IMG/VR virus record: IMGVR_UViG_3300025131_000535
Coordinates: 1 to 20,679 of that record
Reading direction: 5' to 3' (one strand)
DNA length: 20,679 nucleotides
Source: a virus
Below are positions 3,001-18,852 of the stretch, in pieces (the first letter of the stretch is position 1; each line of letters starts with the position of its first letter). Under the pieces are notes generated by a model. That model was not told the DNA's origin. It did no database searches and saw only the letters and a list, made by a program, of their open reading frames with translations. The translations under genes and the position numbers were made by a program.

Positions 3001-4341
3001 GAGCAGGAGCTCAAGGACGCAATCTTTGGTCTTACAACTCCTCTAGAGGACATAATGTTGCCGGCCCCAGTAGCACATGCCGCGGACGGCTCGCCTATTT
3101 ATCATGATCCCGAACCAGAAGACACTTATTTAAGTGACTTTTTTAAAGAAATTTTTCCTTCAATAAAAATGGGCTCAAGGCTAGCCTATTTAACTCCCTC
3201 CTCCCCGGACTGGACCGGTCCCCTGGCAGAAGTCCTCGGAGGGCCGGAAGGCTTTGACGTTCTAGAATCCGCAAGAAAATATAAGTCATTTTTTCTAGCG
3301 GAAGCGGCCATGTTTACGGAGGGCGCAGGAGGGGACCAAAAATTTGCTCACATTGCAATGGGGAATAAATCAGTTGACATAGATGTGGCCAGCTCTTTTC
3401 TGGAAGGAGGATCAGAACTTAACACATTCCTGAGAGAAAATGGGACCACTCAGGGATTTGATCGATTTGTGGAGGAGGTATACCAACGAAAATTTCCATC
3501 CATTGTTACCGGTATGGCTTCCAAAACCCTCGATCTCTTCGGTGACGGAAAAATCGTCGACGTACCTCGCATAATGCAGTATCTTTTTTTAGTAGGTGAA
3601 TTGCGTACATATTATTCCTTGTTTGCGCAGCAAGACATATTTAATGATACCAAACAGACTTTGACCCTCGCCATGGCCGCGGCATTTGCTGGTGATGACC
3701 CTCTAGCTACTAGTGCCTGTGATAAAACGGCGCTCCAAAATATGATGTTAAATGGGGCCACAGATGCGTTAGGGCCCCTATCGTCTTTGGGTAATTCTTT
3801 TATTAATAAGATGCTCATCAATACTCCCAAGGCGATTCTCAAGGGGATTGTCGAACTTTGTGAGCCTCATGTAATCGTTGCCTCAAAAGTTAAGGAAGTT
3901 TCAAAGTCAGTATTCCAAGGAATGGATATGGGACTACAAGCAGCTGCGACTGCAGCGGCCCTGGGCGAAATTGGAGCATCTCTTGAAGGAAATCGCCCCT
4001 CTGCCTGTGATGAGGAACTGGGGATCCCACAAGGTGAGCTAAGTCCATCAGATCTAGATCCACCACCGGATGTTCCTTCACTTGACGAGCTTGTAACTAT
4101 GATCCAAAGAGAAATGGATCAATTATTCCCAGAAAGATTTCCTAAGATAATGAAACCACAGGTCACCAAAGACGGAATAGACTTAGAGGGCACATTACCC
4201 TTCCTTGCAATGTTACCTCCTTTGACTCCATTTGGGATTATATACCTGTTGCTAAGACTGGGCGAATACGCACCCCCTACTGCTGAGCTTGAAGAAAATT
4301 GTGAAACGACAGGCCCGGGCTCACAACTTAACGACACATAA
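1..4341 (+). CDS. Large phage virion structural protein, 5' end missing (partial)
   Basis: The frame is open from base 1 to the TAA at 4339-4341, giving 1446 visible residues, so the true start lies upstream. A TTG at 52 has no Shine-Dalgarno sequence and sits in a reading frame that is already open (FVSDIGNYKE before it), so it is not a credible start. I do not recognise a named family. The protein is mainly helical and acidic. Visible landmarks, counted from base 1, are a helical stretch around residues 1274-1310 containing NTPKAILKGIVELCEPH, a proline/aspartate-rich linker around 1345-1362, and a hydrophobic segment at about 1399-1420 rich in Leu, Pro and Phe close to the C-terminus. From memory, similar C-terminal blocks occur in large structural proteins of uncultured marine phages. 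Its position just upstream of gp25 and gp6 supports a tail or baseplate role. The hydrophobic segment could be a buried helix or a membrane-contacting element. Function is inferred from context only. [Confidence was not given in the original answer; 0 is a placeholder.]. Confidence 0.
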   Translation, partial: FVSDIGNYKEIIIQQDPLSAEDQEDLDRDREILKFLQGPDEEQIPGMTDKDRKFFNNLIPPAAASAFEGLQNIANNLAAMAGDDQVSLVERITRMLANRPLRVAGATHSLYDNIEDFFLTSAIVTQQSTLTPEQALRYYSFLTTLNFRADSADSFGRAITYSINGGTKPDKIKIYSVPVRGDITADLQTTAAGPLSARAIEAKQFKSIVLNYLTESRSWSTPSSGLDSIFQKKLYPFMYLSLINSFAYEISKSDLFDPVSMNNFSLLPRVCTDGSISNWDLMDINTIKQEALAEFANNSCIEGNYELGPVRDAGLLALVSTYMQVLIVDLMLKNIFMVSKFGVDYLSSSPDILNELLNQSQTKILEYLGGTTAVGETTVLPGIVKKAAALVVKKIIVKDPASFAYPISGAPTSSNQVGLLDSLIQLQTLPELPQNPLSAENPILQTMAIRYLFEKRLKGTTEKVKEYFGLNTSTPVESYLTYGMPHVELADFEYLPYGLAAWENTLGPSSNPGPACVYMVRTGQMAASTVYTPDDTYEGSNTSGGGFFALFKYIGARKAEDKFSTATSTAFDKWFDGLDILTKTAGPPLELGFAVDQDNLSKFGKEVAAYEKYGSIVMERYFKVVYSQSQLDAFLDAGSENSQAILMRWVADDIPAFFANRTPLTTTFGIHSTDAMEEEDGPLAGAASAEYLMSFDAFKALFDNLVSILALRQTFLPIPLYLTGYSPMRKETTEEMEERIETNEAAGSGDTTAARIGVAENKNPIEVAIEISDPDYQDQDRKHLSDYNLIKSWCKAVRSVVFSAAGPYIDQADQGTQHVQVFSPDNEYAFDRANAWNDLEDLGQVVSGRSGGLRTWVYPVFKSPSDYDYYAVGNYLLNASLFDGVTFAANTPGEWTYLRRDWQEGGRYYLDDEGDYDDWHNKKILESKNFMIVLNRPNNPDDELDTWMSIRSKTHMDYDKDAEIGGNYSSLDFLPNADANPAPAKKMHDLALSLFHEYNTEQELKDAIFGLTTPLEDIMLPAPVAHAADGSPIYHDPEPEDTYLSDFFKEIFPSIKMGSRLAYLTPSSPDWTGPLAEVLGGPEGFDVLESARKYKSFFLAEAAMFTEGAGGDQKFAHIAMGNKSVDIDVASSFLEGGSELNTFLRENGTTQGFDRFVEEVYQRKFPSIVTGMASKTLDLFGDGKIVDVPRIMQYLFLVGELRTYYSLFAQQDIFNDTKQTLTLAMAAAFAGDDPLATSACDKTALQNMMLNGATDALGPLSSLGNSFINKMLINTPKAILKGIVELCEPHVIVASKVKEVSKSVFQGMDMGLQAAATAAALGEIGASLEGNRPSACDEELGIPQGELSPSDLDPPPDVPSLDELVTMIQREMDQLFPERFPKIMKPQVTKDGIDLEGTLPFLAMLPPLTPFGIIYLLLRLGEYAPPTAELEENCETTGPGSQLNDT

Positions 4342-4403: not shown

Positions 4404-4802
4404 ATGATCGGGTACTCACCAAAATTTCCACTCCAAATTGACAACTATGTAGGGGCATATGCAGTTAATACTGAACTTAAGGATGTTATAAGACAGAATT
4501 TTAAGAACCTCATGTTAACGGCCCAGGGCGAGCGTGTAATGGATATAAATTTTGGAGCTGGCCTCAGACACTATTTGTTTGAACAGAATCACGGTCAGCT
4601 GCAGAGCTCCATCGCCGAAAAAGTGAGAGAGCAAACACAAAAATATATGCCCTTTATTAGTCTCACAAGTGTAGACTTTAATACCAGTACGGTCGCGGGA
4701 AATGTCGAGGATCACATATTAGATATTTCAATTAAGTATTCGATTTCCGGACTCGATGAAAATGCGAGTGTTCTCATCAGCGCCGCCGCGGACTCTTTAT
4801 AG
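4404..4802 (+). CDS. Baseplate wedge protein, T4 gp25 / P2 gpW family
   Basis: A 132-residue protein, the same length as T4 gp25. It carries the hallmarks of the GPW/gp25 family: an N-terminal beta hairpin, then a helix (ELKDVIRQNFKNLMLTAQ, residues 24-41), the GER signature at 42-44, and the turn NFGAGLRHYLF at 49-59, followed by a second helix and a C-terminal beta sheet. In T4, P2 and type VI secretion systems (TssE) this protein sits at the inner baseplate, contacts the gp6 dimer and the sheath end, and helps start sheath polymerisation. Despite the old name gp25-like lysozyme, the family is structural. It ends in TAG, and that stop overlaps the Shine-Dalgarno sequence of the gp6-like gene 10 bases downstream, which fits coordinated production of the two wedge partners. 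Family call is firm. Confidence 0.93.
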   Translation: MIGYSPKFPLQIDNYVGAYAVNTELKDVIRQNFKNLMLTAQGERVMDINFGAGLRHYLFEQNHGQLQSSIAEKVREQTQKYMPFISLTSVDFNTSTVAGNVEDHILDISIKYSISGLDENASVLISAAADSL

Positions 4803-4812: not shown

Positions 4813-6630
4813 ATGGCAAACGACAGAGCAAACAACAGCACAAAGAATCTAAAAATTATCAACTACGCTGGTAGGGACTTCAATTCAATCCGGAATAACT
4901 TATTAGATTATGTTAAAAGATATTATGCCGACTCGTACAAAGACTTCAACTCAGCCGGCTTCGGCTCACTGGTATTAGACACCGTCTCCTATGTGGGAGA
5001 CACACTCTCCTTTTATCTAGATTACCAACTGAACGAAACATTTCTGGATACCGCAACCGAATATGATAATGTAGTTAAGATCGCGCGCCAGCTGGGATAT
5101 AAATATGCCGACTCCTTTTCCTCGGTAGGTCAAGCACAATTTTTTGTGTCGGTGCCTGCAGCCACCTCCGGCGCCCCAGATGATAGATATCTTCCGGTCC
5201 TCCGTGCAAACACAATCCTCCGCTCCACCGGCGGCCAAAATTTTACACTGGTAGAAGATGTGAATTTTGGAGATCCCAACAACCCAATCATTGTAAGTAA
5301 GATAAATTCTACTACCGGAGCGGCATCTGAGTTCGCCATTAAGGCCACAGGAACCGTAATCTCTGGCCGCGTCAGTAGACAAGTCGTTACCACGGGCGAG
5401 TTTATAAAGTTTAGAAAGATTGAATTAGAAAATCCACATTTAGTAGAAATATTAAGTGTTTATGATGATGAGGGACACAGGTATTATCAGGTCGACCACC
5501 TAGCGCAAGAAATTGTCTTTAAGGCTCTTCGAAACAACAGTACCGATAAGAATACTGTATCTTCTATTTTAAAGGCAATCCCTGTCACCCGCAGATTTAC
5601 TTTAGAAAGAAACAGGACTGGTGCCTACCTACAGTTCGGATATGGGTCTGAGGCTGAGCTTACAAACCAGTCGGTTGCTGATCCGAGCACCGTTGTACTT
5701 AAGCTCCATGGCCGAGATTATATAACACAACAAGAATTTGACCCCACCAACTTAACAGAAACTGATAAGTTCGGGGTCGGTCCTTCAAACACACGTATAA
5801 CAATAGTTTATAGAGTTAATGAGGCCGAGGACGTTAACTTGGCGTCCAACTCACTTACTGCAGTCGCCCAGCCGCGATTTAAATTTAATGATTTACCCTC
5901 GTTAAATATGTCTTTGGTTCAACAAGTGCGTAACAGTCTTGAGGTTACCAACGAAGATCCTATTGTCGGCGATATTACTATCCCATCGGTCGACGAACTC
6001 CGACAGCGTGTATATTCACACTACGCCACTCAAAATCGAGCAGTCACCATTCAAGATTATGAGGCCATCTCTTACGCCATGCCGCCTAGCTTTGGAGCAG
6101 TCACGCGCTGTTCTTTTGAGAGAGACTTTGATTCATTTAAAAGAAACTTAAATATGTATGTGATTTCAAAAAATAAGCTTGGCTTTCTGACCACAACGAA
6201 TACTACTATTAAGAATAACTTAAAAACATGGCTTAGTAGCTATAAAATGATTAATGACACTATCGATATTCGAGACGCACTGATAGTAAACTATGGGATC
6301 AGTTTTTCAGTAGTGGCAGATTATGAAGAAAACAAATACGATGTTATTGCTTTGGCAGTGCAGAGGCTCAAGAATTGGGCCAATAACCAGCAGTCTGATA
6401 TAGCAGAACCCATTTACGTAGTAGATATTTATAAGGAACTACAACGCGTCCCTGGTGTTGTCGATGTACTTGACGTACAAATTCTCCACCGCCAAGGGGG
6501 AAATTACTCAAACACAGATTTTGATTTTAATAGTAGCCTCTCTAATGATGGAAGATATTTGAATGGAGAGGTAAACACGATTTTTGAACTTAAATATTCC
6601 GACACAGATATCCAAGGAAGTGTAACTTAA
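4813..6630 (+). CDS. Baseplate wedge protein, T4 gp6 / baseplate J-like family
   Basis: A 605-residue protein, close to T4 gp6 (660 residues). The N-terminal region (residues 15-97) shows the pattern typical of phage gp6 proteins: NYAGRDFNSIRNNLLDYVK, then GFGSLVLDTVSYVGDTLSFY and DYQLNETF, then a helix leading to ARQLGYKY. The middle is beta-rich. Residues 394-440 contain DELRQRVYSHYATQNRAVT followed by QDYEAISYAMPP, the conserved block of the baseplate J fold. The C-terminus has an alpha/beta region with KELQRVPGVVDVLDVQI at about 545-561. In contractile tails, two gp6/gpJ copies pair with one gp7/gpI copy to form each wedge, with gp25/gpW at the inner end. The gene starts at an ATG with AGGA 8 bases upstream and ends in a TAATG overlap with the next gene. 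Confidence in the family is high. Confidence 0.9.
   Translation: MANDRANNSTKNLKIINYAGRDFNSIRNNLLDYVKRYYADSYKDFNSAGFGSLVLDTVSYVGDTLSFYLDYQLNETFLDTATEYDNVVKIARQLGYKYADSFSSVGQAQFFVSVPAATSGAPDDRYLPVLRANTILRSTGGQNFTLVEDVNFGDPNNPIIVSKINSTTGAASEFAIKATGTVISGRVSRQVVTTGEFIKFRKIELENPHLVEILSVYDDEGHRYYQVDHLAQEIVFKALRNNSTDKNTVSSILKAIPVTRRFTLERNRTGAYLQFGYGSEAELTNQSVADPSTVVLKLHGRDYITQQEFDPTNLTETDKFGVGPSNTRITIVYRVNEAEDVNLASNSLTAVAQPRFKFNDLPSLNMSLVQQVRNSLEVTNEDPIVGDITIPSVDELRQRVYSHYATQNRAVTIQDYEAISYAMPPSFGAVTRCSFERDFDSFKRNLNMYVISKNKLGFLTTTNTTIKNNLKTWLSSYKMINDTIDIRDALIVNYGISFSVVADYEENKYDVIALAVQRLKNWANNQQSDIAEPIYVVDIYKELQRVPGVVDVLDVQILHRQGGNYSNTDFDFNSSLSNDGRYLNGEVNTIFELKYSDTDIQGSVT
6614..6620 (+). promoter_or_regulatory. 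Shine-Dalgarno AAGGAAG inside the end of the gp6-like gene
   Basis: AAGGAAG ends 9 bases before the ATG at 6630 and is the strongest ribosome binding site in the window. It supports the TAATG start (6628-6632) over later ATGs. Confidence 0.65.
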
Positions 6631-8171
6631 TGGCCATCTTACGATACACCGCCAGTGCGGATAACACCATAACGAACGCTTTTCAAGCGGACCTGACCAA
6701 CCGAGGCACTGGCTCAAACATGGGTTATGCCGACAGTTTAGAAGTGTTCTCTATCTACGGACAGAACTCATCCTCAGCCACCGGTCAATCTCAGGAACTT
6801 TCCCGAGCATTGATCCAATTTCCGATACATACCATAATATCAGACCGTTCCGCCGGATCCGTCCCAGCCTCCGGTAGCGTTTCCTTTTATCTTCGAATGT
6901 TTAATGCCGAGACACCATTTACTCTCCCACAGGACTTTACTTTAACGGTAGCCCCCATATCGCAGTCATGGGTCGAGGGTACTGGCTTGGACATGGACGA
7001 ATATAGAGACCTGGGTTCATCCAACTGGCTACAGGCGAGAGTTTCCGCTTCTGCAGACGACGGCACCTGGACCTCGATTGGGGGCGATTATTTGACGGCC
7101 TCCAATTATAATACGACATTTCCTCAGGGGTATGAAGACCTCGAAGTAGACATAACTTCTTTGGTAGAACAGTGGGTCGATGGTACTTATAGTAACAACG
7201 GTGTTGGAATACATCTTACAGCTAGCCAGGAGGCATATCATTCGAGTTCTACGGGCGCAGACTCGGGCAACATTATTAATAATCTCTCTGGCTCAACTGA
7301 TTCCTACTATACTAAAAAGTTCTTCTCACGATCAACACAATATTTCTTCAGCCGACCAGTATTAGAGGCGCGCTGGGATTCTAGGACTCAAGATGATAGA
7401 GAAAATTTCTTTTACTCTAGTTCCGCCGCCCCGGCTGCCGATAATTTGAATACGCTATATTTTTATAACTATATTCGCGGCCGCCTCGTCGACCCCCCAG
7501 CTGTTGCTGCCGCCGGCGAAGAGATTTGGGTGTCCTTTTATTCTAGCTCCGCAGGTGCACCCACGGGTTCTAAGCTGGCGTTGCCAGTGGGAGGCGCCGT
7601 GGCCACGAATCTAGACCTCAATGCAACTGGAAATCTCTCCGTTGCTGGAATTTATACTTGTAACTTGGCTCTTACCTCAGCGGCCACTCCATTAGAAGCA
7701 ATACACGACGTCTGGCATTTTGACGGCGTTGAGTACTTTACGGGGTCTTTTTATCCCGAAAGCTTCCCAACCTATCAGTCTGCACCGACCTTTACGCGGG
7801 TAACCTCTTGTCGCAACTTGAAATCATCATATTCACAAAAGGATAAAGCTAGGTTTAGGTTTTTTGTTCGCTCCCGAGACTGGAGCCCCACTGTGTATAC
7901 AATAGTGACCACCAATAACCCCACAGAGGTTATAACAAGCGCTTCATATGCGATCTATAGGACAACAGACAACTATGCAGCGGTACCGTACGGAACTGGC
8001 TCAGATCTTAGTACCTACATGTCCTATGATCAGCAAGGGAATTATTTCGACCTCGATATGTCGTTATTAGAAGGAGGCTATATGTACGAAATTAAATTAT
8101 CTTATTACAATGATAGTATAGGAGATTGGCAGGAGCAACCCCAAACGTTCAGATTTAGGGTTGATGAATAA
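6630..8171 (+). CDS. DNRLRE-like beta-rich tail/baseplate structural protein
   Basis: A 513-residue protein rich in Ser, Thr, Tyr and Gly, with no signal peptide or membrane segment. The N-terminal half (about residues 1-200) resembles the DNRLRE-type jelly roll of secreted and surface proteins: SRALIQFPIHTI at about 58-69, SWVEGTGLDMDEYRD at about 113-127, and the closing block VDITSLVEQWVDGTYSNNGVGIHL at about 173-196. A middle Ig-like section (about 260-385) has YFYNYIRGRL and WHFDG. The last 120 residues end in an Ig/fibronectin-like sheet with EGGYMYEIKLSYY and FRFRVDE. It overlaps gp6 by one base and is followed after 7 bases by the giant gene, so it is part of the baseplate operon. A role as a baseplate-periphery or fibre-anchoring protein is inferred. 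Carbohydrate binding is possible but no binding residues can be assigned. The domain family call is moderate because it rests on pattern resemblance. Confidence 0.8.
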   Translation: MAILRYTASADNTITNAFQADLTNRGTGSNMGYADSLEVFSIYGQNSSSATGQSQELSRALIQFPIHTIISDRSAGSVPASGSVSFYLRMFNAETPFTLPQDFTLTVAPISQSWVEGTGLDMDEYRDLGSSNWLQARVSASADDGTWTSIGGDYLTASNYNTTFPQGYEDLEVDITSLVEQWVDGTYSNNGVGIHLTASQEAYHSSSTGADSGNIINNLSGSTDSYYTKKFFSRSTQYFFSRPVLEARWDSRTQDDRENFFYSSSAAPAADNLNTLYFYNYIRGRLVDPPAVAAAGEEIWVSFYSSSAGAPTGSKLALPVGGAVATNLDLNATGNLSVAGIYTCNLALTSAATPLEAIHDVWHFDGVEYFTGSFYPESFPTYQSAPTFTRVTSCRNLKSSYSQKDKARFRFFVRSRDWSPTVYTIVTTNNPTEVITSASYAIYRTTDNYAAVPYGTGSDLSTYMSYDQQGNYFDLDMSLLEGGYMYEIKLSYYNDSIGDWQEQPQTFRFRVDE

Positions 8172-8178
8172 TTAAAAT

Positions 8179-11100
8179 ATGAGTCTTAAGGGATTATTTA
8201 ATACCGTCGCTGTAACAAAAATAGTCGACGATAAAACATCAGCGGAGATAGGGGGGGTCGTTGAATCGGCTGACTACCATCTAGCGGATATTATTGATGA
8301 GAAGAGATTTATTCCTTCAATTGACTTTTCCCAACCCAAAAACTTTGCAAAATATGGCTCGGCAGTAAAATATTACGAAGACTCTTATACCTATATCCAC
8401 TCCTCATATCCCTATGATGGTTCGCTAGCCGAGAAACTACAGTGGAAAAATAGTGGCTCTTATATAGACCTCTATATTTTTGATAATAAATACCCACGCA
8501 CCACTGGTTATATCAATTTTTCATATGGAGGTTGGGGCACCCCAGCTGCGGCCCCATCGCTAACTAACGGGTATGGAATTCCCAACAACAGCGCTGATTA
8601 TGAATACATTGCTATCAAGGGCGGCCCCGGCATCGGCGGCGGAATTCAAAACCAATCGGCAAATGTGTGGGATCCCGCCAACAACAGAGAGTCCAATCTT
8701 GAAATCGACCTATCAGAGGGAGTCACAACAGAGTTTTGGCTTAAAAAGACTGCTTTTGACACTACTAAAACAGAAAAAGAGGTTATTTTTGACCTATGGA
8801 ATAACGAGTTGTCTAGTTCCGCGAACTATGGTAGGCTCCGGCTAGAATTGTCCGGCGCCTCGCCAGCTGGCGCCGACCCTTTCCGATTAACTTTTATGTC
8901 CGGAGCGATCGGCCGGCAGCAGCTCTCGTTGGGAGCCAGCACTCTTACAACGGCGTCCGTCGCAGATAATGCGTGGCACCATTATGCTGTTTCACTGAAA
9001 AACTCACCTGTTGTGGGAACCTCTAAATCTATTCAGTTTAATGGCGCCACAACAAACCAGGGCATCCGCACAGGCACAGAGGCATACTGGGATGCACTTA
9101 TCGGTGGCGCCGGAGTATCATCACTACCCTTTTCAGTTTCTACGTGGATATACCCCTCCTCTGTCTCGCCTCATGATAGTACATCTGATTTCTTTTGGTC
9201 CGTCAGCGCCGGTAATTATAAGCTGGCCCTGTCTCTAGAAACAGATGGGCGAATTCACGCGTACAAAGGAAACGTAGGTACGGTTGCTGAGGCATCCTCA
9301 AGTGTTCTGATTTCCTCCGAGCAATGGTACCACGTGGTATACACATATGAGGGCGACGTCAACGGAGAATTGAAGATTTATGTCAACGGAGAATTGGCCA
9401 TGTCCGAGACGGTTGTTGCCGACGACCCACTAGGATGCGATGCGCTCTCCTCGTACTATATGCGCATCGGAGGACCCTCATGGACTACGGTGGGAACGGC
9501 CTTCTTCGATGGGTACATTGACGATACAAGTATATGGGACGAGGAGCTTACAGATTCCAGCGTAAGATCATTGTTTAATAATGGCGTTCCTACTAATCTA
9601 TCCGGCCCGTCGGCCCCCTCTGGCTTGCTGTCCTGGTGGACAATGGGCGATAATAGCGGAGACATTTTAAACGGGACTAATGTTTCATCCGCTAATAATA
9701 GAATTGTCGATGAAACGGGCGCCCAGGACGGCTTCGCCCAGCTGGGGTCCATGGAAGAATCTCAGATTGTAACCCAATCCTCGGCCAACAACGTTATCGA
9801 TGCTAAATTTTATGTAGACGGGCGCCCAAATAATTTTATTAGTATTGGAGCCATGTCTACATCTTCCTTTGGGAAGATCGGCGGCGCCATGCAGGCAACT
9901 ATCGGCTCCCTCATAACTTCCCCGGCAAACTCTACTGCTGCCGCCATGGCTGGAAAATTAAGCGCGTCCCTGGACGAGTTCCGATACTGGAAGACGCAAC
10001 GCAGTTCTGAAAAAATTGGTAGGTATTGGTTTACACAAGTCGGCGGAGGTACCAACACAGATCTTGCAAATACCGATTTAGGAGTCTACTATAAATTTAA
10101 TGAAGGGATAACACAAACCGCTTCTGTAGATTCTACTATTTTAGACTACTCCGGCCGCATTACCAATGGTACCTGGACCGGGTACACCGCAGGTGCAAGA
10201 AACACCGGCTCAGCCATAGTATCTGCCTCAGCCGCACAGAGCGAATTTAAAGATCCGATTATCTATTCAACCCATGCAGACGTTGTGTCTACGCTCCAAA
10301 TATTAAAAAACTCAGGGTCAGTCCACGATTTCGATAATTCGTCACAACTTTTTGGTTATTTTCCCTCATGGATGCAACTTGATGATCCGGAAAACGGAAA
10401 CGAACTTCAAAAACTAACTCAGATTATCTCCAGTTATATGGACACTCTCTATCTTCAGATTGAGAGTTTCGGAGATATTCATAATATTTCATATTTAAGT
10501 GGCTCCGCCGCCAAGGCAAACACCACAGTTGAGAAGCTTTTATCAGCTAAGGGGCTCCTGGCCCCAGAACTATTTTTGGATGCAGATATTCTAGAGAAGC
10601 TGGGAGATAGAAGCGAGGAGCGATTATACCGCGACTCATTATCTAACATTAAAAACAAGATATACCAAAACTTATATAATAACCTTACTGCCATTTATAA
10701 GTCTAAGGGTACCCGTCAATCATTCCGAAATGTTTTAAGATGTTTTGGCGTCGATGAAAAGATTTATAGGCTCAATGTTTATGGCAATAATGTTCAGTTC
10801 AAAGTTAGAAATAACCGCGAACTGTATTCTGCTAATAAAAGATATATAGATTTTAGCCGCAGGGCCCATTTTGAATCAACAGTATTTCTTTCCGCTAGCA
10901 CGGCAAATGCTGTCTCGTACTTAACGTCCTCTGTGGAATTAACCGGTGGTTACGCGAGCACTCTTGAAGCTTATATACTTTTTCCTCGTAAACCAGGCGC
11001 CAAGGAGCTCGCGTATAGTGATTACTCGTACAACTATTTAACTTCGTCTCTGTTTGGTCAGCATACTGTAGTTCCAACGGCCCCCTCGAGTTCATTAGTG

Positions 11101-14100
11101 TGGGACACTCCGGACAATACTAACTTTCAAGTACTTGCCGTCCGTGATACGGTCGGTTCTGTTGATGCGCAGTTTATTTTATCTTCTAGCGCCGAAGGCG
11201 CATTACCAATACTGACGTCCTCTTTCTATGACGATGTATATGAGAATAGTAATTGGATCTTTGGTGTAACGGTTAAACCTGCCCAATACCCCTTGGTGGA
11301 CTATATCTTCGGCTCAGATACTGAGAACTATATAGTTGAGTTTAAAGGCACCCAAGTCGACGCTGGTGAGGTTTTAAACTCCTTCACGGTAACTGGCTCG
11401 CTCTCGGGCGAAGAAGCGACCAAAGGGTTCCTCACGGGCTCTAAGAGAGTATATGTTGGTGCCCACCGCCAAGACTTTGAGGGAGCTGTGATTGATCGAA
11501 GCGACGTCCGCGTCGGATTCTGCCGATATTGGTTAGACGATATTACTCTAAACTTGATGCAAGATCATGGCCGCGATGTCCAAAATTATGGTACTTTAAA
11601 CCCCTCTCGAAGCCCGTATCTTTTCCAGGGTGAAGCAGGAACCCACGGCCGCGGATCAGGATCTGCAGAATTTTTAGAAACAGATACACTAGCAATGAAT
11701 TGGGACTTTGCAACGGTTACCGGCTCCAACGCATCGGGCGAATTTACTGTTCCCGATTTTTCATCTGGCTCCACGGCGGCACAATCTAGTCGTTGGGGCC
11801 CATTGGGTAATCTACTAGCCGCACAGCATACTGGTTATGGTTATGGTTTCCCTGCATCATCAACACAAGTAATTGATGCCGATTACGTATTAGCAGCAGA
11901 GTTACAAGACTTCGAGCGCCTTAACTCAAATGACATGATATCCGTTATGTCGGTTGAAGACGATATGGAATTCACCAGAGAGTCGCGACCTATAAACTTT
12001 TTATATGCCATCGAAAAAAGTATGTATCAATCGATTTCGGAAAATATGCTGCAGATGTTCGGTACGATCACTGATTTTAATAATATTATTGGGAGTCCAG
12101 CTAATAAATATCGGGATACGTATAGGAGCCTCCGAATCTTGCGTGAGCGTTTCTTTGAAAGGGTGGGGAACACACCAGATCTAGATAAATATATTGAATT
12201 TTATAAGTGGTTTGACTCTTCCTTAAGTAAAATTTTACAACAATTGGTACCGGCCTCCGCACAATTTTCTAAAGATGTACTTACGGTCGTGGAAAGTCAC
12301 GTCCTAGAACGTAGCAAATATCAACATAAGTTTCCGACGGTAGATTTAAAGAGTGGAGACATCGAAGGCTCTATCATCTCCCCTCTCCCGTTAAGCCCAG
12401 GCTGGCAATTTACTCACCACCCGGTAAATGATAGGGAAGATACAAATGCGAATTACTGGAAGAATTTGGCTTCTCGTGCCACCGGAAAGCTCGCGTCGAC
12501 AAACACGGCCTTAGACAGCAATAAGCAAATCTACTTTGATAACAGCACTAAAGATACGAGAGACAGAAAAGAACGAAATACTTACAGGTTTAAAAGCACA
12601 ACACAGAAAACCATCCGCGCCGGCACGACCACACATAGGAACAAAAAGGCTAATTTTGTTTTTGATGCGACTGCACCATGTGGACCGGTTGTTCCAGGAA
12701 CCAACATTCCTCAGAACATAATGATGAGTTTTAATACAGATGTAGAACAAAATCAGGATATAGTGGACGATCTTCATCCGGGTAAAAAGAAAAGATTAGG
12801 CTTCGGTATTGATCCCACTATTAATAATACGCCAGGCCAACTCAAGCAGGACGGCAACATTCTGGCGCCATTTAGTTTATATAGTTCATCGGTTTCGACG
12901 GGGTACAACTCTTATGTAGTTGGCTTTTATACTGGAAGCGTGATGCTAACAAACCTGCATGAAGACATAGTATTAACCAACGAGACGCGCCCACTCCAGG
13001 GCCCGTTCACAGAAAAATTTGTTGGCGGAAGATACTATCGCCACGGGCCACTGAATGGCCAGCACGGCTCACTTGATACTCCCGATGACCGAGCAGAAGG
13101 GTTTAGACTAGAGTTTGGTGTGTCGGCACCGTCTTCATATTCCGGAGCACTTGGAATTGTGCCGCCAAACTATCCCTTTGTTGATTCGCCGTCTGGATCA
13201 GCGCCGTACGGTTTCTTGGGTCGCTTACCAACGGCGCAAAGGCTGAGAGACGAGGGGTCTAAACGGCCGGTTAATATTAAAAACATTCTGATGTCAACAG
13301 CGTCAGCGCAGACTCGACTGCCCGGAACGATACTTCATAGTAAAATCGGCAACTATACAAAAAACTATCAAGTTATTCAGTCCGCCGGTCGCACGATCAA
13401 CGATCCATTCTTCCAAGATCAATCGTTTAGTTTCGCGGCCAACCCTCTAGCCAGTAACCAGACCATCCGGGGAAGATTCCCTCTTTCTAACGTGCACGGC
13501 AGTCCAGCAACGCCAAATGTAGGCTTTGTAGAACACGAAATCCCCCAGAGAACTGGCTCTAATTCTAACAAAACTATTTTTGTTAACAAGTTTAGTGCAC
13601 CCGGTGGCTATAGTTCGATCTCACCAGGGTATTTAGGCCCAGCCCACGAAGAAAAATCTGTTTATAATGTACTTTCTTATCGCAACCTATCTGTTCTAGA
13701 CTATGGAGTCTATGAATCCGCTTCTGCCGATGCCTCTACAAATCTTACTATGCACGTAGATCAGGCCTTTAAGAATAATATCTCTGTTTCCCGAGGCCTA
13801 AAACAGCGCCTAGTTCCACATAATGCACCGTTTGGGTACGACGGGGTGTATACAGAGTTGCCGGCGTACTATAAAGTTAATCGGAACGCACGTACTCAAA
13901 TAAGTGATGCTGATGGAAACACTACTCAAAAGTATGACAATTACTTTGTTCATCATCCCATCCCGCGATCAATAAAGCAGTATCGATGGGTTACCTCCTC
14001 TTACGATGCTTCATACACAGACCCAGGGAAATTTTATGGATATAGCGAGTTAAGTGGGGGCTACTTTATTGAAAGTCTACCAACAATTAGTCAGTCGTCT

Positions 14101-17100
14101 GATTACGACGACGAAACTTTTACTTATCTCACTATAAGGATTGCGGACCCAGTTTCAAGTGCCACCAATACGCTGGGCTTCCCACTATCTGATGCTACAT
14201 CCTCATATATCAATTCAGAATACTGGGCACCCCCGGCGTTCAATCAGCCTCCCGACATGTTCAATTCGTTGATGCTGATGAGAAATGGCCCCTATCAGGC
14301 GCCTTCCTGGAAACAGCTAAGGCAGAAAGACCACCCAGTACTGAGAAACCATGAAAAAAATAGTATTCTCTCTTTGCGTACAAAATCCGGATATGATGTT
14401 ACTATAGGCGCTCGTCGCGGGAACAATCTTACACAGTTCACAGAACCGCAAGTTTATAGCAGCGAGATGCCCCTGATACATCGCTTCCAGATAGGACAAG
14501 ACCGAGTACATATCCTATCCTTAAAAAACTCATTTGGCAACAAGCTTATAGCCTTTGCTAACTATGAAGCAAACAATCTTCTTAATACCCAACGTAAGTA
14601 TGATTCCGGGAATCTCTATTTTAATCGAATAAATTCAATGATTTTAATGGGCCGCAACAAAGATAAGTCTGTGAATTCGGCCTTGTCTAACATTGGCGCA
14701 ACATATGCACAAACAGTATACCCGGCAACCTATAACGCCTTCTTAAATCGTACCCGAAGCAGAAATTATTATAGTATCGCTGATGTTTGGAATAACTCAC
14801 GCGCACTGCGGTCTGATGCTGCCAGAGAAAACTCGCAGGGAACAACCATTACTAAAACATATGTTGCATATCCTAGCAAGTGGCTCACCGATGCCCATCA
14901 TGTTTATAGTTCATCTGTGAGTTATACATACGATGACGGCGCCGGGGAACTTCAAAATTCTTATTCGCGCTATTATGTTCAGACAAATGGGTCGGCTCGC
15001 TCCCCGATTATCTATCCAGCGGCAACCTACAATGCGCGTATCCCTCTGGGGACGGTGTCATCCTCAACGAGTCCATCAGGATTCTGGCCTGCCTTCGTCG
15101 GTGATCGATTTAACTTAGTTATGGGATCCTATTCAGGTTCCCTAGGAATCGCAGGCTCGGGCAAGGTTCCATATAAAAATTATGAAGACTATGCAAAACA
15201 TCTAAGACTCATAGGAAAAGATTATTCGATAGTTCCAGAGTTTAGGATTAGCGAGCACATTGCCGAATTCCTGCAGGGCGAAGATTTTACGACATTAGGC
15301 GATATAGACGATCTCCTGAGTCTCACTGGGTCGGCATATAACAGTTCCGCGGAAACTGGGTTTTATCAAGAGTATGCCAATTCTGATTTCATGAAGATGT
15401 TCCAGGTTGTAAATGATGCATATGACGGGAGCAAGCTTGTTGATGGGTCTGAGATGGAGCAAGACAAGATAGGCTTGCGTTGCAACGCGTTGCTCCAGTT
15501 TTTACCATATAAGGGGTTTTATCCGGCCGAGCGCACACAACAGCTGGCATCTCTGTTCTCGCAGTCCTATGGGCCCCAAGTTTTTAAGAGTGGCTCTGGT
15601 CTAGCAGAGGCTGCCGTCTATCGAGCTATTCTGGAACCATTGTATTCCCAAGGAGTAATGTACAATACGATTAAGTCTGGCATAGCTGTTAGTAATTTTA
15701 TAATCTCTAACACTGCGAGCATCCCCGCCCAGATCATCGCCACTCCCGGCGGCGGTCCCCCTAGTGCTAATCTATCATCCTCGGCGGTAAAGAGTACGGG
15801 CGCCACCCCGCTACCTGAGGGTAATTTGTTTTTTGAATACATGTTGCCACCATTTAAGTCAACTGACGGCTCTTTTTCGGGCTCCTATTGGAATGAAAAT
15901 GGCTATTTCTTCGAAAAGGTGCCCTTCGAGGCCCTGTATCAGCCTCGGAACTTCTTATCGGAAGATTATATTTCGTATACAGGAAGAGTTTATGACACCG
16001 GATTACAGAGCGCGAGCCTTTTAGAATACGCGGACGAAGGCGGCGGCACATCTGAAGACAATTACGTCACTTGGAACGGTCAAGGTGATCGTAAATATGA
16101 ACTAGCTATTGATAACTTTTTGTGCGAGACAGTTAACTTCTTTCAAAATGGGCTGACTTCCATTGTTTCAAGTCGAGAAGATGATTTTGGCGCCATTGAA
16201 AGCGGGTCTGTGTACTCAATGACACTTAAATTATATCGGCCAACCACGGTGAGTCCTGGCCACGACTGGGCCGACACCGGGTCCATCATACCTGATTATA
16301 GTAAGTTTGATATGTATCGTAGAGTCTCCGCCTTTGGTCCTCCCATCGCTTCGAAGTGGTGGGATATTGACGCTTCTTTTGACGGCGCCGCTGATTACAG
16401 TGCCAGCTTCTCACACTTGACTCCCCCATATATTGCCGGCTCGGGTTCATGTACTTTCTCGTACACCGCCAGCAGCAACGGGATCCCAACGTTAGATGAT
16501 ATATTTAGCAACATGTCAATAACTTATAACCGAATGGAGTTCACGACACTACAGAATACCGATAATGCCGGCGGTGAAATGACAGATTATAAGGTACAGT
16601 TAAAAGATAGCTTTAACCTGACACAATCAATTAATTCTGTCCCGGCCGGAACTCGTACTCAAAAGAAGCAGTGGCTCATTCAGTCTAAATTTGAAACACC
16701 CGTTATTAACATTGCCGGCGACCGAAGAACTTGTGGTACAGCAGAAGTTGCCGGCGCCTACGCCACAGGGATGGTCGCACTCACGAGCAGTGTTGTTTCC
16801 TCAGCATTTGCAACAGGGTATATTGACTTGACAGCCAGCTCTCCGGGCGAGGCCACTGCCACCGGGTCAGTGGAATTCGCCGGCGTCCCGAACGATACGA
16901 AGTTCCTATATTTTCAGGGAGCCTCGGGCACACAATATGCTTACTTCGCCGATGCCGGCGCCACCCGGGTCAACCCATCATACGCTGAAACCAATAATGT
17001 GTGGTACTTTAATTATGGGGCCGACAAAGACGAGGCCGCGGAGAACCTCCGCGACGCGTTGACGGCTTCTGCTTTTGTTGTTACTGACGGCGGCTCTGTG

Positions 17101-18852
17101 ACAATGCCAGCTAGTGATGCTGTAATGCTGACGGCTTCAGTTGCCGGTACCGCCGGCAACTTTAGTCTTCTTGATGACGGCCTCGGTGAGGTTGTAATTC
17201 TCGGAATGGCCGGCGGCGCCGACGGAACCAACACAATCACAGAGGACGATCAGTGGACGATTAGTGATGGTGGTACCGATGGCGAAACTCACTCAATGAC
17301 TTTTGCTCTTACGGCCTCCGGAGGCTCATGCCCCGCCGGCGCAACAGACTGCGCGCTGATCGACATGACTGATATCGATGCGACGGCCACCAGTTTGGCT
17401 GCGAAGATTAATCTTCAGGACGACCTTAATATAACAGCCGGAGTGGAGAAAAACGGTCTGCTAAAAGCCAGAATAACATTAACAAACAACACAACAGGCT
17501 CTGCTGGGAAGGTACCTATTACAGCAACGACTTCCTCAAATGGCGACGGTTACCAGGAAATAGGTGGAATGGCCGGAGGCGCCGACGCGGTGTACTCCCT
17601 GGATTCTATGGATCGGTTTACCCTTAGTGATGGCGGAACGGACGGAGGCACCACTAGTGCCACCTTTAAACTTAAAACCGGGGCCTCGGCAGCAGATGAG
17701 GCGGAGCTTGTAGATAATGATGCCTCTGCCAGTGCAGCAAATCTTATCGCAAAGATTAATGCTTATACCGATTTGGGCGTGACGGCCTCTCCTGGCGCCG
17801 GAAATTCGGCAGCAAATGCCTTTATTACATTAACAAATGATAATTTCGGGAGCGACGGCAACGTAACAATCGGACTAATAGTTGATGACGCCGCGTACTG
17901 GGCAGCGTCTGGGATGGCCGGGGGAGTGACGTACGAGGCTGCCAATGTCTATGGCGACACTTACGGCGCCTTGTCGGTAGCCACCCCAGCAGATACAACC
18001 GTTCCAGTTCCCCCCGCCGGCCTCGCAGTGACAGAAAACTGCCAGATCTACACTCAGGGACTTTGGCACGATTATGGGACAGTCCCAAGTGGCTCAGATG
18101 AGGGCGTTTTCGCTGTCATTGAATCGCCTTCTCCCAAAGAAGGAAATTCTTTAGCTGAGTTGGTTGGTATGCCAATTGGGCAGCAGTTTAGAATTGGTGG
18201 GGTTAAGGGTCGCAATATGCTAGAGGAGGCTGTCGTCGCAGTACCATTTTTCATGGGCCGAGACAACCGAAGAAAATTCTATAAGTTAGATAGTGAGTCA
18301 AAGAACTCCATTAAAACGTTAACTACTCAACTAGATAAGTATATTTTCCCGCCTAGGTTTGATTTTATTCGGAATGATGATATGGATCCGATAGCCATGT
18401 ATGTATTTGAGTTTAGCCGTGCCGTTACTCAAAAAGATATAGCAGACATGTGGCAGAATCTTCCGCCCTCAATTCATGAAACCTTCGTCCAAAAAGAGTC
18501 GACTATTGAACACAGGCTTCTAAAAGATCAGATGCTGAACAAATCCGGCCGGCCCTTACGGAATGATCTTAGGTGGTTGGTATACAAAGTGAAAAAAAGA
18601 GGAGAAATGGACTATTCTAGGTTCACCAAGAAGGGCCTAATTGACGATACTGGAACCATACCAAGCAATATTAATAATGCGGCTTATTCCTACAATTGGC
18701 CATATGATTATTTCTCCTTAGTGGAACTAGTTAAAATTGATGAAGCAATTGGATATACCTCTGAGTTACCACCAGATAGTAGGGTAGAAATAGTAGGGGA
18801 CGTAAATATTTCGTCACGCGATGGTATAATGATAAACATGGAAGAAGAATAA
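8179..18852 (+). CDS. Giant 3557-residue baseplate-associated protein with nested LamG-like domains and a possible gp7/gpI-like core
   Basis: A single uninterrupted frame from ATG 8179 to TAA 18850-18852. Order of regions: a short N-terminal arm (1-120); a first LamG/concanavalin A-like domain in two halves (about 120-276 and 538-690) with a complete second one between them (277-537); a helical block (about 695-894) with KGTRQSFRNVLRCFGV at 843-858; a third lectin-like jelly roll (about 895-1142, SKRVYVGAHRQDFEG then VRVGFCRYWLDD); a second helical block (about 1250-1386, NDMISVMSVEDDME to ESHVLERSKY); a long aromatic- and Ser-rich beta region (about 1390-2834) with blocks such as FLPYKGFYPAERTQQL near 2440; an inserted repeat block (about 2853-3285); and a C-terminal domain with GLWHDYG at 3294-3299, PIAMYVFEFSRAVTQKDI and YNWPYDYFSLVELVKID. 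The ribosome binding site is weak. From memory the C-terminal blocks match huge structural proteins of uncultured marine phages. A baseplate wedge or adhesin role is inferred from its place after gp25 and gp6. Confidence 0.85.
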   Translation: MSLKGLFNTVAVTKIVDDKTSAEIGGVVESADYHLADIIDEKRFIPSIDFSQPKNFAKYGSAVKYYEDSYTYIHSSYPYDGSLAEKLQWKNSGSYIDLYIFDNKYPRTTGYINFSYGGWGTPAAAPSLTNGYGIPNNSADYEYIAIKGGPGIGGGIQNQSANVWDPANNRESNLEIDLSEGVTTEFWLKKTAFDTTKTEKEVIFDLWNNELSSSANYGRLRLELSGASPAGADPFRLTFMSGAIGRQQLSLGASTLTTASVADNAWHHYAVSLKNSPVVGTSKSIQFNGATTNQGIRTGTEAYWDALIGGAGVSSLPFSVSTWIYPSSVSPHDSTSDFFWSVSAGNYKLALSLETDGRIHAYKGNVGTVAEASSSVLISSEQWYHVVYTYEGDVNGELKIYVNGELAMSETVVADDPLGCDALSSYYMRIGGPSWTTVGTAFFDGYIDDTSIWDEELTDSSVRSLFNNGVPTNLSGPSAPSGLLSWWTMGDNSGDILNGTNVSSANNRIVDETGAQDGFAQLGSMEESQIVTQSSANNVIDAKFYVDGRPNNFISIGAMSTSSFGKIGGAMQATIGSLITSPANSTAAAMAGKLSASLDEFRYWKTQRSSEKIGRYWFTQVGGGTNTDLANTDLGVYYKFNEGITQTASVDSTILDYSGRITNGTWTGYTAGARNTGSAIVSASAAQSEFKDPIIYSTHADVVSTLQILKNSGSVHDFDNSSQLFGYFPSWMQLDDPENGNELQKLTQIISSYMDTLYLQIESFGDIHNISYLSGSAAKANTTVEKLLSAKGLLAPELFLDADILEKLGDRSEERLYRDSLSNIKNKIYQNLYNNLTAIYKSKGTRQSFRNVLRCFGVDEKIYRLNVYGNNVQFKVRNNRELYSANKRYIDFSRRAHFESTVFLSASTANAVSYLTSSVELTGGYASTLEAYILFPRKPGAKELAYSDYSYNYLTSSLFGQHTVVPTAPSSSLVWDTPDNTNFQVLAVRDTVGSVDAQFILSSSAEGALPILTSSFYDDVYENSNWIFGVTVKPAQYPLVDYIFGSDTENYIVEFKGTQVDAGEVLNSFTVTGSLSGEEATKGFLTGSKRVYVGAHRQDFEGAVIDRSDVRVGFCRYWLDDITLNLMQDHGRDVQNYGTLNPSRSPYLFQGEAGTHGRGSGSAEFLETDTLAMNWDFATVTGSNASGEFTVPDFSSGSTAAQSSRWGPLGNLLAAQHTGYGYGFPASSTQVIDADYVLAAELQDFERLNSNDMISVMSVEDDMEFTRESRPINFLYAIEKSMYQSISENMLQMFGTITDFNNIIGSPANKYRDTYRSLRILRERFFERVGNTPDLDKYIEFYKWFDSSLSKILQQLVPASAQFSKDVLTVVESHVLERSKYQHKFPTVDLKSGDIEGSIISPLPLSPGWQFTHHPVNDREDTNANYWKNLASRATGKLASTNTALDSNKQIYFDNSTKDTRDRKERNTYRFKSTTQKTIRAGTTTHRNKKANFVFDATAPCGPVVPGTNIPQNIMMSFNTDVEQNQDIVDDLHPGKKKRLGFGIDPTINNTPGQLKQDGNILAPFSLYSSSVSTGYNSYVVGFYTGSVMLTNLHEDIVLTNETRPLQGPFTEKFVGGRYYRHGPLNGQHGSLDTPDDRAEGFRLEFGVSAPSSYSGALGIVPPNYPFVDSPSGSAPYGFLGRLPTAQRLRDEGSKRPVNIKNILMSTASAQTRLPGTILHSKIGNYTKNYQVIQSAGRTINDPFFQDQSFSFAANPLASNQTIRGRFPLSNVHGSPATPNVGFVEHEIPQRTGSNSNKTIFVNKFSAPGGYSSISPGYLGPAHEEKSVYNVLSYRNLSVLDYGVYESASADASTNLTMHVDQAFKNNISVSRGLKQRLVPHNAPFGYDGVYTELPAYYKVNRNARTQISDADGNTTQKYDNYFVHHPIPRSIKQYRWVTSSYDASYTDPGKFYGYSELSGGYFIESLPTISQSSDYDDETFTYLTIRIADPVSSATNTLGFPLSDATSSYINSEYWAPPAFNQPPDMFNSLMLMRNGPYQAPSWKQLRQKDHPVLRNHEKNSILSLRTKSGYDVTIGARRGNNLTQFTEPQVYSSEMPLIHRFQIGQDRVHILSLKNSFGNKLIAFANYEANNLLNTQRKYDSGNLYFNRINSMILMGRNKDKSVNSALSNIGATYAQTVYPATYNAFLNRTRSRNYYSIADVWNNSRALRSDAARENSQGTTITKTYVAYPSKWLTDAHHVYSSSVSYTYDDGAGELQNSYSRYYVQTNGSARSPIIYPAATYNARIPLGTVSSSTSPSGFWPAFVGDRFNLVMGSYSGSLGIAGSGKVPYKNYEDYAKHLRLIGKDYSIVPEFRISEHIAEFLQGEDFTTLGDIDDLLSLTGSAYNSSAETGFYQEYANSDFMKMFQVVNDAYDGSKLVDGSEMEQDKIGLRCNALLQFLPYKGFYPAERTQQLASLFSQSYGPQVFKSGSGLAEAAVYRAILEPLYSQGVMYNTIKSGIAVSNFIISNTASIPAQIIATPGGGPPSANLSSSAVKSTGATPLPEGNLFFEYMLPPFKSTDGSFSGSYWNENGYFFEKVPFEALYQPRNFLSEDYISYTGRVYDTGLQSASLLEYADEGGGTSEDNYVTWNGQGDRKYELAIDNFLCETVNFFQNGLTSIVSSREDDFGAIESGSVYSMTLKLYRPTTVSPGHDWADTGSIIPDYSKFDMYRRVSAFGPPIASKWWDIDASFDGAADYSASFSHLTPPYIAGSGSCTFSYTASSNGIPTLDDIFSNMSITYNRMEFTTLQNTDNAGGEMTDYKVQLKDSFNLTQSINSVPAGTRTQKKQWLIQSKFETPVINIAGDRRTCGTAEVAGAYATGMVALTSSVVSSAFATGYIDLTASSPGEATATGSVEFAGVPNDTKFLYFQGASGTQYAYFADAGATRVNPSYAETNNVWYFNYGADKDEAAENLRDALTASAFVVTDGGSVTMPASDAVMLTASVAGTAGNFSLLDDGLGEVVILGMAGGADGTNTITEDDQWTISDGGTDGETHSMTFALTASGGSCPAGATDCALIDMTDIDATATSLAAKINLQDDLNITAGVEKNGLLKARITLTNNTTGSAGKVPITATTSSNGDGYQEIGGMAGGADAVYSLDSMDRFTLSDGGTDGGTTSATFKLKTGASAADEAELVDNDASASAANLIAKINAYTDLGVTASPGAGNSAANAFITLTNDNFGSDGNVTIGLIVDDAAYWAASGMAGGVTYEAANVYGDTYGALSVATPADTTVPVPPAGLAVTENCQIYTQGLWHDYGTVPSGSDEGVFAVIESPSPKEGNSLAELVGMPIGQQFRIGGVKGRNMLEEAVVAVPFFMGRDNRRKFYKLDSESKNSIKTLTTQLDKYIFPPRFDFIRNDDMDPIAMYVFEFSRAVTQKDIADMWQNLPPSIHETFVQKESTIEHRLLKDQMLNKSGRPLRNDLRWLVYKVKKRGEMDYSRFTKKGLIDDTGTIPSNINNAAYSYNWPYDYFSLVELVKIDEAIGYTSELPPDSRVEIVGDVNISSRDGIMINMEEE
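9007..9789 (+). other. LamG/concanavalin A-like domain inserted within another LamG-like domain (residues 277-537 of the giant)
   Basis: This segment is a complete LamG-type jelly roll: opening strand SIQFNG (284-289), FSVSTWIYP (318-326), EQWYHVVYTYEG then LKIYVNGEL (381-405), and the closing FFDGYIDDTSIWDEELT (442-458) with WWTMGD (485-490). The flanks read as one interrupted LamG: WHHYAVSLKN before it (266-275) and NVIDAKFYVDGRPNN right after it (538-552), which would normally be adjacent. The second half then continues with LDEFRYWKTQR and LGVYYKFNEG. Boundaries are accurate to perhaps ten residues. Confidence 0.6.
10261..10860 (+). other. Helical block with KGT...RNVLRCFG motif, possible gp7/P2 gpI-like wedge core (residues 695-894)
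   Basis: This stretch is helix-rich: SSQLFGYFPSWMQLDD, LQKLTQIISSYMDTLY, LYRDSLSNIKNKIYQNLYNN and IYKSKGTRQSFRNVLRCFGV. Small tail proteins of the P2 gpI family, the counterpart of T4 gp7, have a similar arrangement of helices ending in a Lys/Arg-Gly-Thr motif and a helix running into a Gly near a Leu/Phe. It follows gp25 and gp6 in gene order, as gpI follows gpW and gpJ in P2. The match is by eye and remote. Confidence 0.4.
10861..11604 (+). other. Third lectin-like (concanavalin A/LamG-type) jelly roll in the giant (about residues 895-1142)
   Basis: Opening strands FESTVFLSAS (898-907) and TLEAYILFPRK, then NWIFGVTVKPAQYPLVDYIFG, SKRVYVGAHRQDFEG and SDVRVGFCRYWLDDITLNLM. The last block resembles the usual LamG ending in which a rigid strand leads to an R.W helix-like turn. 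Divergence is larger than for the first two lectin-like regions. Confidence 0.4.
16762..16905 (+). repeat. Three tandem 16-residue (48-base) repeats with an Ala-Thr-Gly core
   Basis: The core A-T-G followed by a hydrophobic strand recurs at residues 2862, 2878 and 2894 of the giant (ATGMVAL, ATGYIDL, ATGSVEF), an exact period of 16 residues. The DNA is diverged (gccacaggg, gcaacaggg, gccaccggg), so this is an old protein-level repeat and not a recent slippage product. The pattern suits short beta strands in a solenoid or hairpin stack. Confidence 0.7.
16885..17925 (+). repeat. Three tandem beta modules of about 111, 121 and 115 residues, each ending GMAGG
   Basis: GMAGG occurs at residues 3009, 3130 and 3245, which sets the unit ends at bases 17217, 17580 and 17925. 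The second and third units share a strand pair containing SDGGTDG (3029-3035 and 3150-3156, exactly 121 residues apart), a helix like TSLAAKIN / ANLIAKIN, and ARITLTN / AFITLTN before a glycine-rich turn. The first unit is more diverged but has the equivalent helix DEAAENLRDAL and the strand VMLTASVAGTAGN. Such modules are common as beta decorations on phage structural proteins; the binding target, if any, cannot be read from sequence. Confidence 0.75.
18840..18847 (+). promoter_or_regulatory. Purine-rich ribosome binding site (GGAAGAAG) for the 366-residue protein
   Basis: GGAA at 18840-18843 is 8 bases before the ATG at 18852, inside the last codons of the giant gene. It is a moderate Shine-Dalgarno match; the TAATG overlap (18850-18854) also favours re-initiation at this start. 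Confidence 0.45.

Follow-up and report, generated by a model that had tools for sequence, protein, structure and literature searches.

A complete LamG domain nested in a hairpin of another LamG domain in a giant protein of marine T4-type phages, with evidence for exchange of the nested domain

The DNA analysed here in its entirety, called the window, is a 20.7-kb fragment (20,679 nt) from the IMG/VR viral record IMGVR_UViG_3300025131_000535. A gp25-like baseplate wedge gene (4404..4802, +; PF04965, E 8e-15; phrog_261) and a gp6-like baseplate wedge gene (4813..6630, +; phrog_6, E 9e-18, and phrog_219; tblastn matches to phages annotated as baseplate wedge) lie upstream of a giant ORF (8179..18852, +). 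The latter encodes a protein of 3557 aa that is homologous along its length to ~80 viral loci and carries the nested domain described below. The fragment does not extend far enough to reveal gp23, the major capsid protein of T4-type phages, which was found in eight of the ten long contigs carrying relatives of the giant ORF, marking the family as T4-type myoviruses. Together, the gp25-like and gp6-like genes upstream and gp23 in the long relatives place the ORF in a T4-type baseplate cluster.

Residues 690–1399 (10246..12375, +) form a conserved core in the alignment that is distantly shared with isolate phages. Part of this core gives a profile match to protein gp109 of Flavobacterium phage immuto (E 1e-16), and distant homologues of the sequence from residue ~700 onwards are encoded directly 3′ of the gp6 homologue in immuto and in Microcystis phage Mel-JY01; a search for similarity to the N-termini of these homologues found none. 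The gene order, with the carrier following gp6, is compatible with the position of gp7, a T4 baseplate wedge protein. Of the comparisons bearing on gp7, the core profile matched no PDB sequence and the fold-match list was filled by LamG. The N-terminal part had no relative among PDB sequences either, and a PHROGs search with the core returned no assignment. Likewise, tblastn of residues 1–1000 against 50,697 phage records gave no match, meaning that, at this sensitivity, no isolate in that collection carries the nested region. Genome-collection matches from a host search fall in unrelated MAGs. A homologue of the phage core (43% identical) is present in the 2.8-Mb WOR-3 MAG chromosome CP070664.1 (L124) and belongs either to a prophage or to viral sequence that was joined to the MAG during scaffolding.

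Two further features of the giant protein lie outside the nested region. Residues ~885–1241 (10831..11901, +) are predicted to fold into a second, conserved LamG-like sandwich that is not a cassette (AlphaFold2 model, pLDDT mostly 77–94; fold matches to the LG domain of PAPP-A and to 4dqa with Z 15–16, model 196–552) and is too divergent for Pfam to detect. Near the C-terminus, tandem modules of ~100 residues occupy residues ~2886–3221 (16834–17841), with two copies being 45% identical; such modules also occur in the relatives L005 and L036.

A preliminary description of this DNA, made from its letters alone, proposed that two strands normally adjacent in a LamG jelly roll are held apart in the giant protein by a second, complete LamG pattern. 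Its anatomy proved right and its interpretation, discussed further below, largely so. In the translation, the strand WHHYAVSLKN spans residues 266–275 and NVIDAKFYVDG residues 538–548, with SIQFNG...WWTMGD located in between. The first half of the outer LamG domain (residues 107–275; 8497..9003, +) ends in WHHYAVSLKN and is covered by fold matches as well as by modelled strands at 182–275. Its second half (residues 538–688; 9790..10242, +), in which the fold resumes with KFYVDG, LDEFRYWKTQR and YYKFNEG, is conserved in all relatives and, in the model, packs against the first. The insert (residues 277–537; 9007..9789, +) consists of a complete LamG domain plus a C-terminal return linker. Its LamG core extends from SIQFNG to WWTMGD (residues 284–491; 9028..9651, +), and the nested domain matches the Laminin_G_3 profile (PF13385) with 87.9–92.1 bits, well above the curated cut-off of 27.6 (best stretch 314–462; whole-protein E 1e-24). 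The insert differs modestly in composition from its flanks (GC3 of 0.53 versus 0.44–0.45), and no target-site duplication or hallmark of a mobile element was detected either at the junctions of the window itself or at the L019 junction.

An AlphaFold2 model of residues 1–703, built from a 62-sequence alignment, is of moderate overall confidence (mean pLDDT 68, pTM 0.62). The outer strands are modelled with high confidence (block pLDDT mostly 80–95 for 180–275 and 73–93 for 540–610), and the insert, which forms a separate set of strands at 283–487, with lower confidence (block means 38–85). Fold matches to pentraxins and to the LG domain of PAPP-A span residues 107–688: 209 of the 217 residues of the pentraxin 3flp_A align over model 107–682 (Z 18.5), as do 197 of the 206 residues of CRP over model 109–680, while the insert alone matches the LamG-type structure 4dqa (model 276–537, Z 16.8), all ranges denoting first and last residues only. 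The packing of the two halves is deduced from match coverage, from the listed strands and from relatives that lack the insert, rather than from inspected coordinates; on this basis, residues ~107–275 and 538–688 are predicted to form one pentraxin-like sandwich, i.e. a jelly roll built from both flanks of the insert, with the inserted LamG as a separate fold. The prediction agrees with the preliminary description, which had expected a pair of jelly rolls connected through a single loop. By profile or fold, both domains belong to the LamG/pentraxin superfamily; their lectin role is putative. PAPP-A, the top fold match, was considered as a precedent for a nested LamG and set aside because its N-terminal LG domain is described as one continuous stretch.

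Relatives provide a second line of evidence for the nesting. A scan with residues ~608–1207, which lie outside the insert, returned 80 viral relatives, 79 of them alignable; IMG/VR as a whole comprises at least 592 relatives. Residues ~277–537 are missing in 74 of these 79 (occupancy 6%), and the flanks are kept in 95–100%, so close relatives lack exactly the insert. The uninterrupted hairpin, which reads e.g. WHHYAFSFLSASAGVTAKYYIDG, has a short turn that makes the two strands direct neighbours. In two insert-free relatives, L060 and L010, one continuous Laminin_G_3 match runs across the junction (179–368 and 167–362; 33.0 and 31.3 bits, cut-off 27.6), identifying the outer domain as LamG by profile in its uninterrupted copies. 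The same profile did not hit insert-free L002, L003 and L047, indicating that the outer LamG family is divergent. A homologous insert in the same hairpin, termed site A, is found in five members of the scan set (L005, L007, L008, L028 and L031); a scan with an alignment as query contributed L084, L088 and L090, bringing the total to eight other contigs. A single-sequence scan with the insert had found no relatives, in contrast to the alignment query, and a second scan using the return linker as query detected no further site-A carriers. All long site-A inserts share this C-terminal linker (DGTNVSSATN...YSPxNN). An in-frame fold of 261 residues placed exactly between two strands that relatives keep side by side, together with homologous inserts at the identical point in contigs of other samples, is far beyond chance. 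It is thus confirmed that residues 277–537 constitute an entire LamG domain lodged in a hairpin of another one. In L007, a frame change interrupts the N-terminal coding region (7463–8246 of that contig, near window residue ~230); it is probably an artefact of sequencing or assembly, since the 99.6% identical L088 lacks it.

Comparison of the relatives further indicates that members of the family employ multiple loops and sites, beyond the single one of the preliminary description. With a profile of the nested inserts, LamG cassettes were found in many relatives at no fewer than five additional, recurrent sites, near window residues 1399–1420, 1626–1684, 1770–1788, 1905–1919 and 1941–2028. Site B (residues ~1399–1420; 12373..12438, +) is empty in the window and holds a LamG in L013, L014, L025, L041, L050 and L096; site D (residues ~1770–1788; 13486..13542, +), also empty in the window, is filled with LamG in many relatives, among them L002, the nearest; and the likewise empty sites E and F (residues ~1905–1919 and ~1941–2028; 13891..14262, +) are occupied in relatives. 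In a tree of 98 cassettes, these group in part by site, yet the sites are mixed (37 changes against a minimum of 8 and a shuffled mean of 64), with weak inner branches. LamG cassettes also occur as small separate genes (~220–760 aa) in related phage contigs (L094, L099, L100, L101, L105–L110, L114, L115, L117, L118, L120 and L122). These are possible cassette donors; none groups closely with any site-A insert in the cassette tree.

The outer LamG domain itself is occupied at other positions as well. In L091 a nested LamG precedes WHHYA, in L112 and L119 one follows the LYVNG strand, and a non-LamG module of ~150 residues follows residue 212 in L019 and residue 232 in L070 and L072. Copies of this module (L019 aa 217–364 and 1588–1731; L070 aa 234–397; L069 aa 1184–1333) are 60–64% identical between sites of the same or related giant proteins. 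Hence, at least four loops beyond the 276/538 hairpin carry modules in relatives, the loops used across phages being those after ~212, after ~232, between ~245 and 262, at 276/538 and at ~549–571. This use of several loops makes the outer LamG look like a multi-loop socket.

The most direct view of exchange comes from L084 and L090, two contigs from different metagenomes (3300006753 and 3300025131) that are ~99.5% identical over ~8.2 kb. Between them, 151 mismatches fall within nt 4961–5431 of L084 (~470 bp; residues ~291–447), compared with 39 elsewhere. This tract covers nearly the whole nested LamG core, and the outer LamG and the compared downstream residues are 100% identical after rounding. 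Within the tract, 49 codons differ synonymously and 55 in the encoded amino acid, accompanied by indels, and 73 of the 151 mismatches involve A, as expected without bias. The inclusion of synonymous changes and the lack of a concentration on A show this to be replacement by a diverged allele rather than targeted hypermutation: the nested domain of these phages has been replaced alone, by recombination, with its surroundings unchanged. The same pattern is seen for L041 and L096 (~95% identical) at the LamG cassette of another site, and these two additionally differ by the presence or absence of a further cassette. In a control pair from two samples, L007 and L088 (99.6% identical), the nested domains are identical. 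The preliminary description had read the nesting as a hint of recent or repeated adhesin swapping. Recency is supported for L084 and L090, a result that does not carry over to the window's own insert, as the window is a short fragment without a near-identical relative.

That many sites accept at least two unrelated types of module, and that most relatives manage without the nested domain, could also be explained if the nested LamG were a structurally tolerated spacer, with loops taking up any fold neutrally and phage binding left unchanged. We consider this unlikely: the cassettes are mostly lectin-like LamG domains and not random folds, and the tract replaced between L084 and L090 coincides with the nested LamG core and alters 55 amino acid codons within an otherwise almost invariant ~8.2 kb.

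The distribution of the insert speaks for mobility. On a backbone tree built downstream of it, the eight carriers require at least seven changes in insert presence, all seven forced by well-supported branches, and the nearest relative of most carriers lacks the insert (window/L002, L028/L060, L031/L047). This patchiness supports the repeated swapping proposed earlier. As a rule, nested domains are more divergent than backbones (identities of 34% against 58–65% for the window and L005), whereas those of L008 and L084 are 65% identical on backbones of 50%, which indicates lateral exchange. Transfer of the whole outer domain together with the insert was addressed with an outer-domain tree, on which carriers are scattered too (seven changes, three forced). 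In residues 176–274, carriers resemble one another slightly more than expected from the backbone, which suggests that the insert may bring short adjoining stretches along. Moreover, the site-A cassette of L005 is closest to one at another site, namely that of L091 at 2276. The return linker common to all long site-A inserts does point to a common ancestry at the hairpin, as would be expected if the insert were ancestral and had been lost from most relatives without ever being mobile. However, a single gain would cost 16 losses, and neither the resemblance of the nested domains in the distant phages L008 and L084 nor the cross-site affinity of the L005 cassette fits such a history, rendering it improbable.

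Two other alternatives fare worse. The restriction of variation to one domain of otherwise near-identical genomes is reminiscent of diversity-generating retroelements or other targeted mutators, but a variable segment with adenine-specific substitutions, the mark of a retroelement target, was not found in L084/L090, and the synonymous differences, the indels and the unbiased involvement of A make this origin very improbable. Finally, although the window and its relatives are metagenome contigs, an assembly chimera of two LamG genes can practically be dismissed given in-frame inserts in the same hairpin of eight other contigs from different samples and the identical inserts of L007 and L088.

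We therefore return to exchange by recombination: with nesting, patchy gain and loss, other occupied loops and replacement in near-identical relatives each documented by sequence comparison or model, a socket for exchangeable LamG cassettes in a baseplate-associated protein of T4-type myoviruses is the explanation that we hold to be probable as a whole. In a marine myovirus of the T4 type, the giant ORF would encode a virion protein associated with the baseplate. The LamG sandwich at the N-terminus of this protein would act as the socket, in which the hairpin WHHYAVSL/KFYVDG is opened to hold a second complete LamG while the first remains unbroken. The nested LamG would belong to a pool of cassettes that are inserted, removed and replaced in loops of the giant protein, presumably by ordinary recombination during co-infection. 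An outward-facing, putatively carbohydrate-binding surface could thereby change with the scaffold kept, and, given a position at the particle surface, this may affect host attachment and host range. A putative function as exchangeable lectins would best account for these observations.

Optional inserts in LamG-type folds are known from neurexin, whose LNS2 domain carries an eight-residue insert at splice site 2 (WHDVKVTRNLRQ | HSGIGHAM | VTISVDG; PDB 6pnq) that modulates ligand binding (PMC6856630). By motif rather than by inspected superposition, the W-H hairpin concerned is equivalent to that of the phage protein (WHHYAVSLKN | insert | KFYVDG). Whereas splicing adds 8 or 15 residues in neurexin, the phage protein has gained an entire LamG of 261 residues that is encoded in the genome. 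Tandem arrays such as laminin LG4-5 and neurexin LNS1-6 also combine several LamG/LNS domains in one adhesive protein, but as beads on a string, whereas the phage LamG sits inside another LamG. Accessory Ig-like domains on phage virion proteins are well known. Those on structural proteins of tailed phages are likewise exchangeable accessory adhesion domains (cf. PMC13370021, PMC10743442); in contrast, the accessory domain considered here is a LamG within a LamG loop of a giant baseplate-cluster protein. In marine Alteromonas phages, recombination exchanges host-recognition parts, with whole fibre and chaperone modules being shared (PMC10579305); the segment replaced here is a tract of ~470 bp within a single nested domain. 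Searches of the open-access literature yielded no account of one LamG lying inside another, an absence that is no proof of novelty. The preliminary description is extended by two findings: the nested domain alone is replaced between near-identical phages, and it belongs to a cassette system that spans several sites.

A LamG hairpin that by motif matches the splice-insert site of neurexin can thus take up an entire second LamG. Since nested insertion keeps both folds whole, a binding domain can be added or replaced without refolding the scaffold. It is conceivable, if still tentative, that the first LamG is a dedicated socket whose loops, at least five in number, take whole modules, and that replacement of the nested lectin alone contributes to the diversity of surface binding in abundant marine T4-type phages. 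For this large and uncultured group, the natural series of empty, occupied and replaced sites over hundreds of marine viral contigs makes attachment specificity through a loop-nested lectin directly testable.
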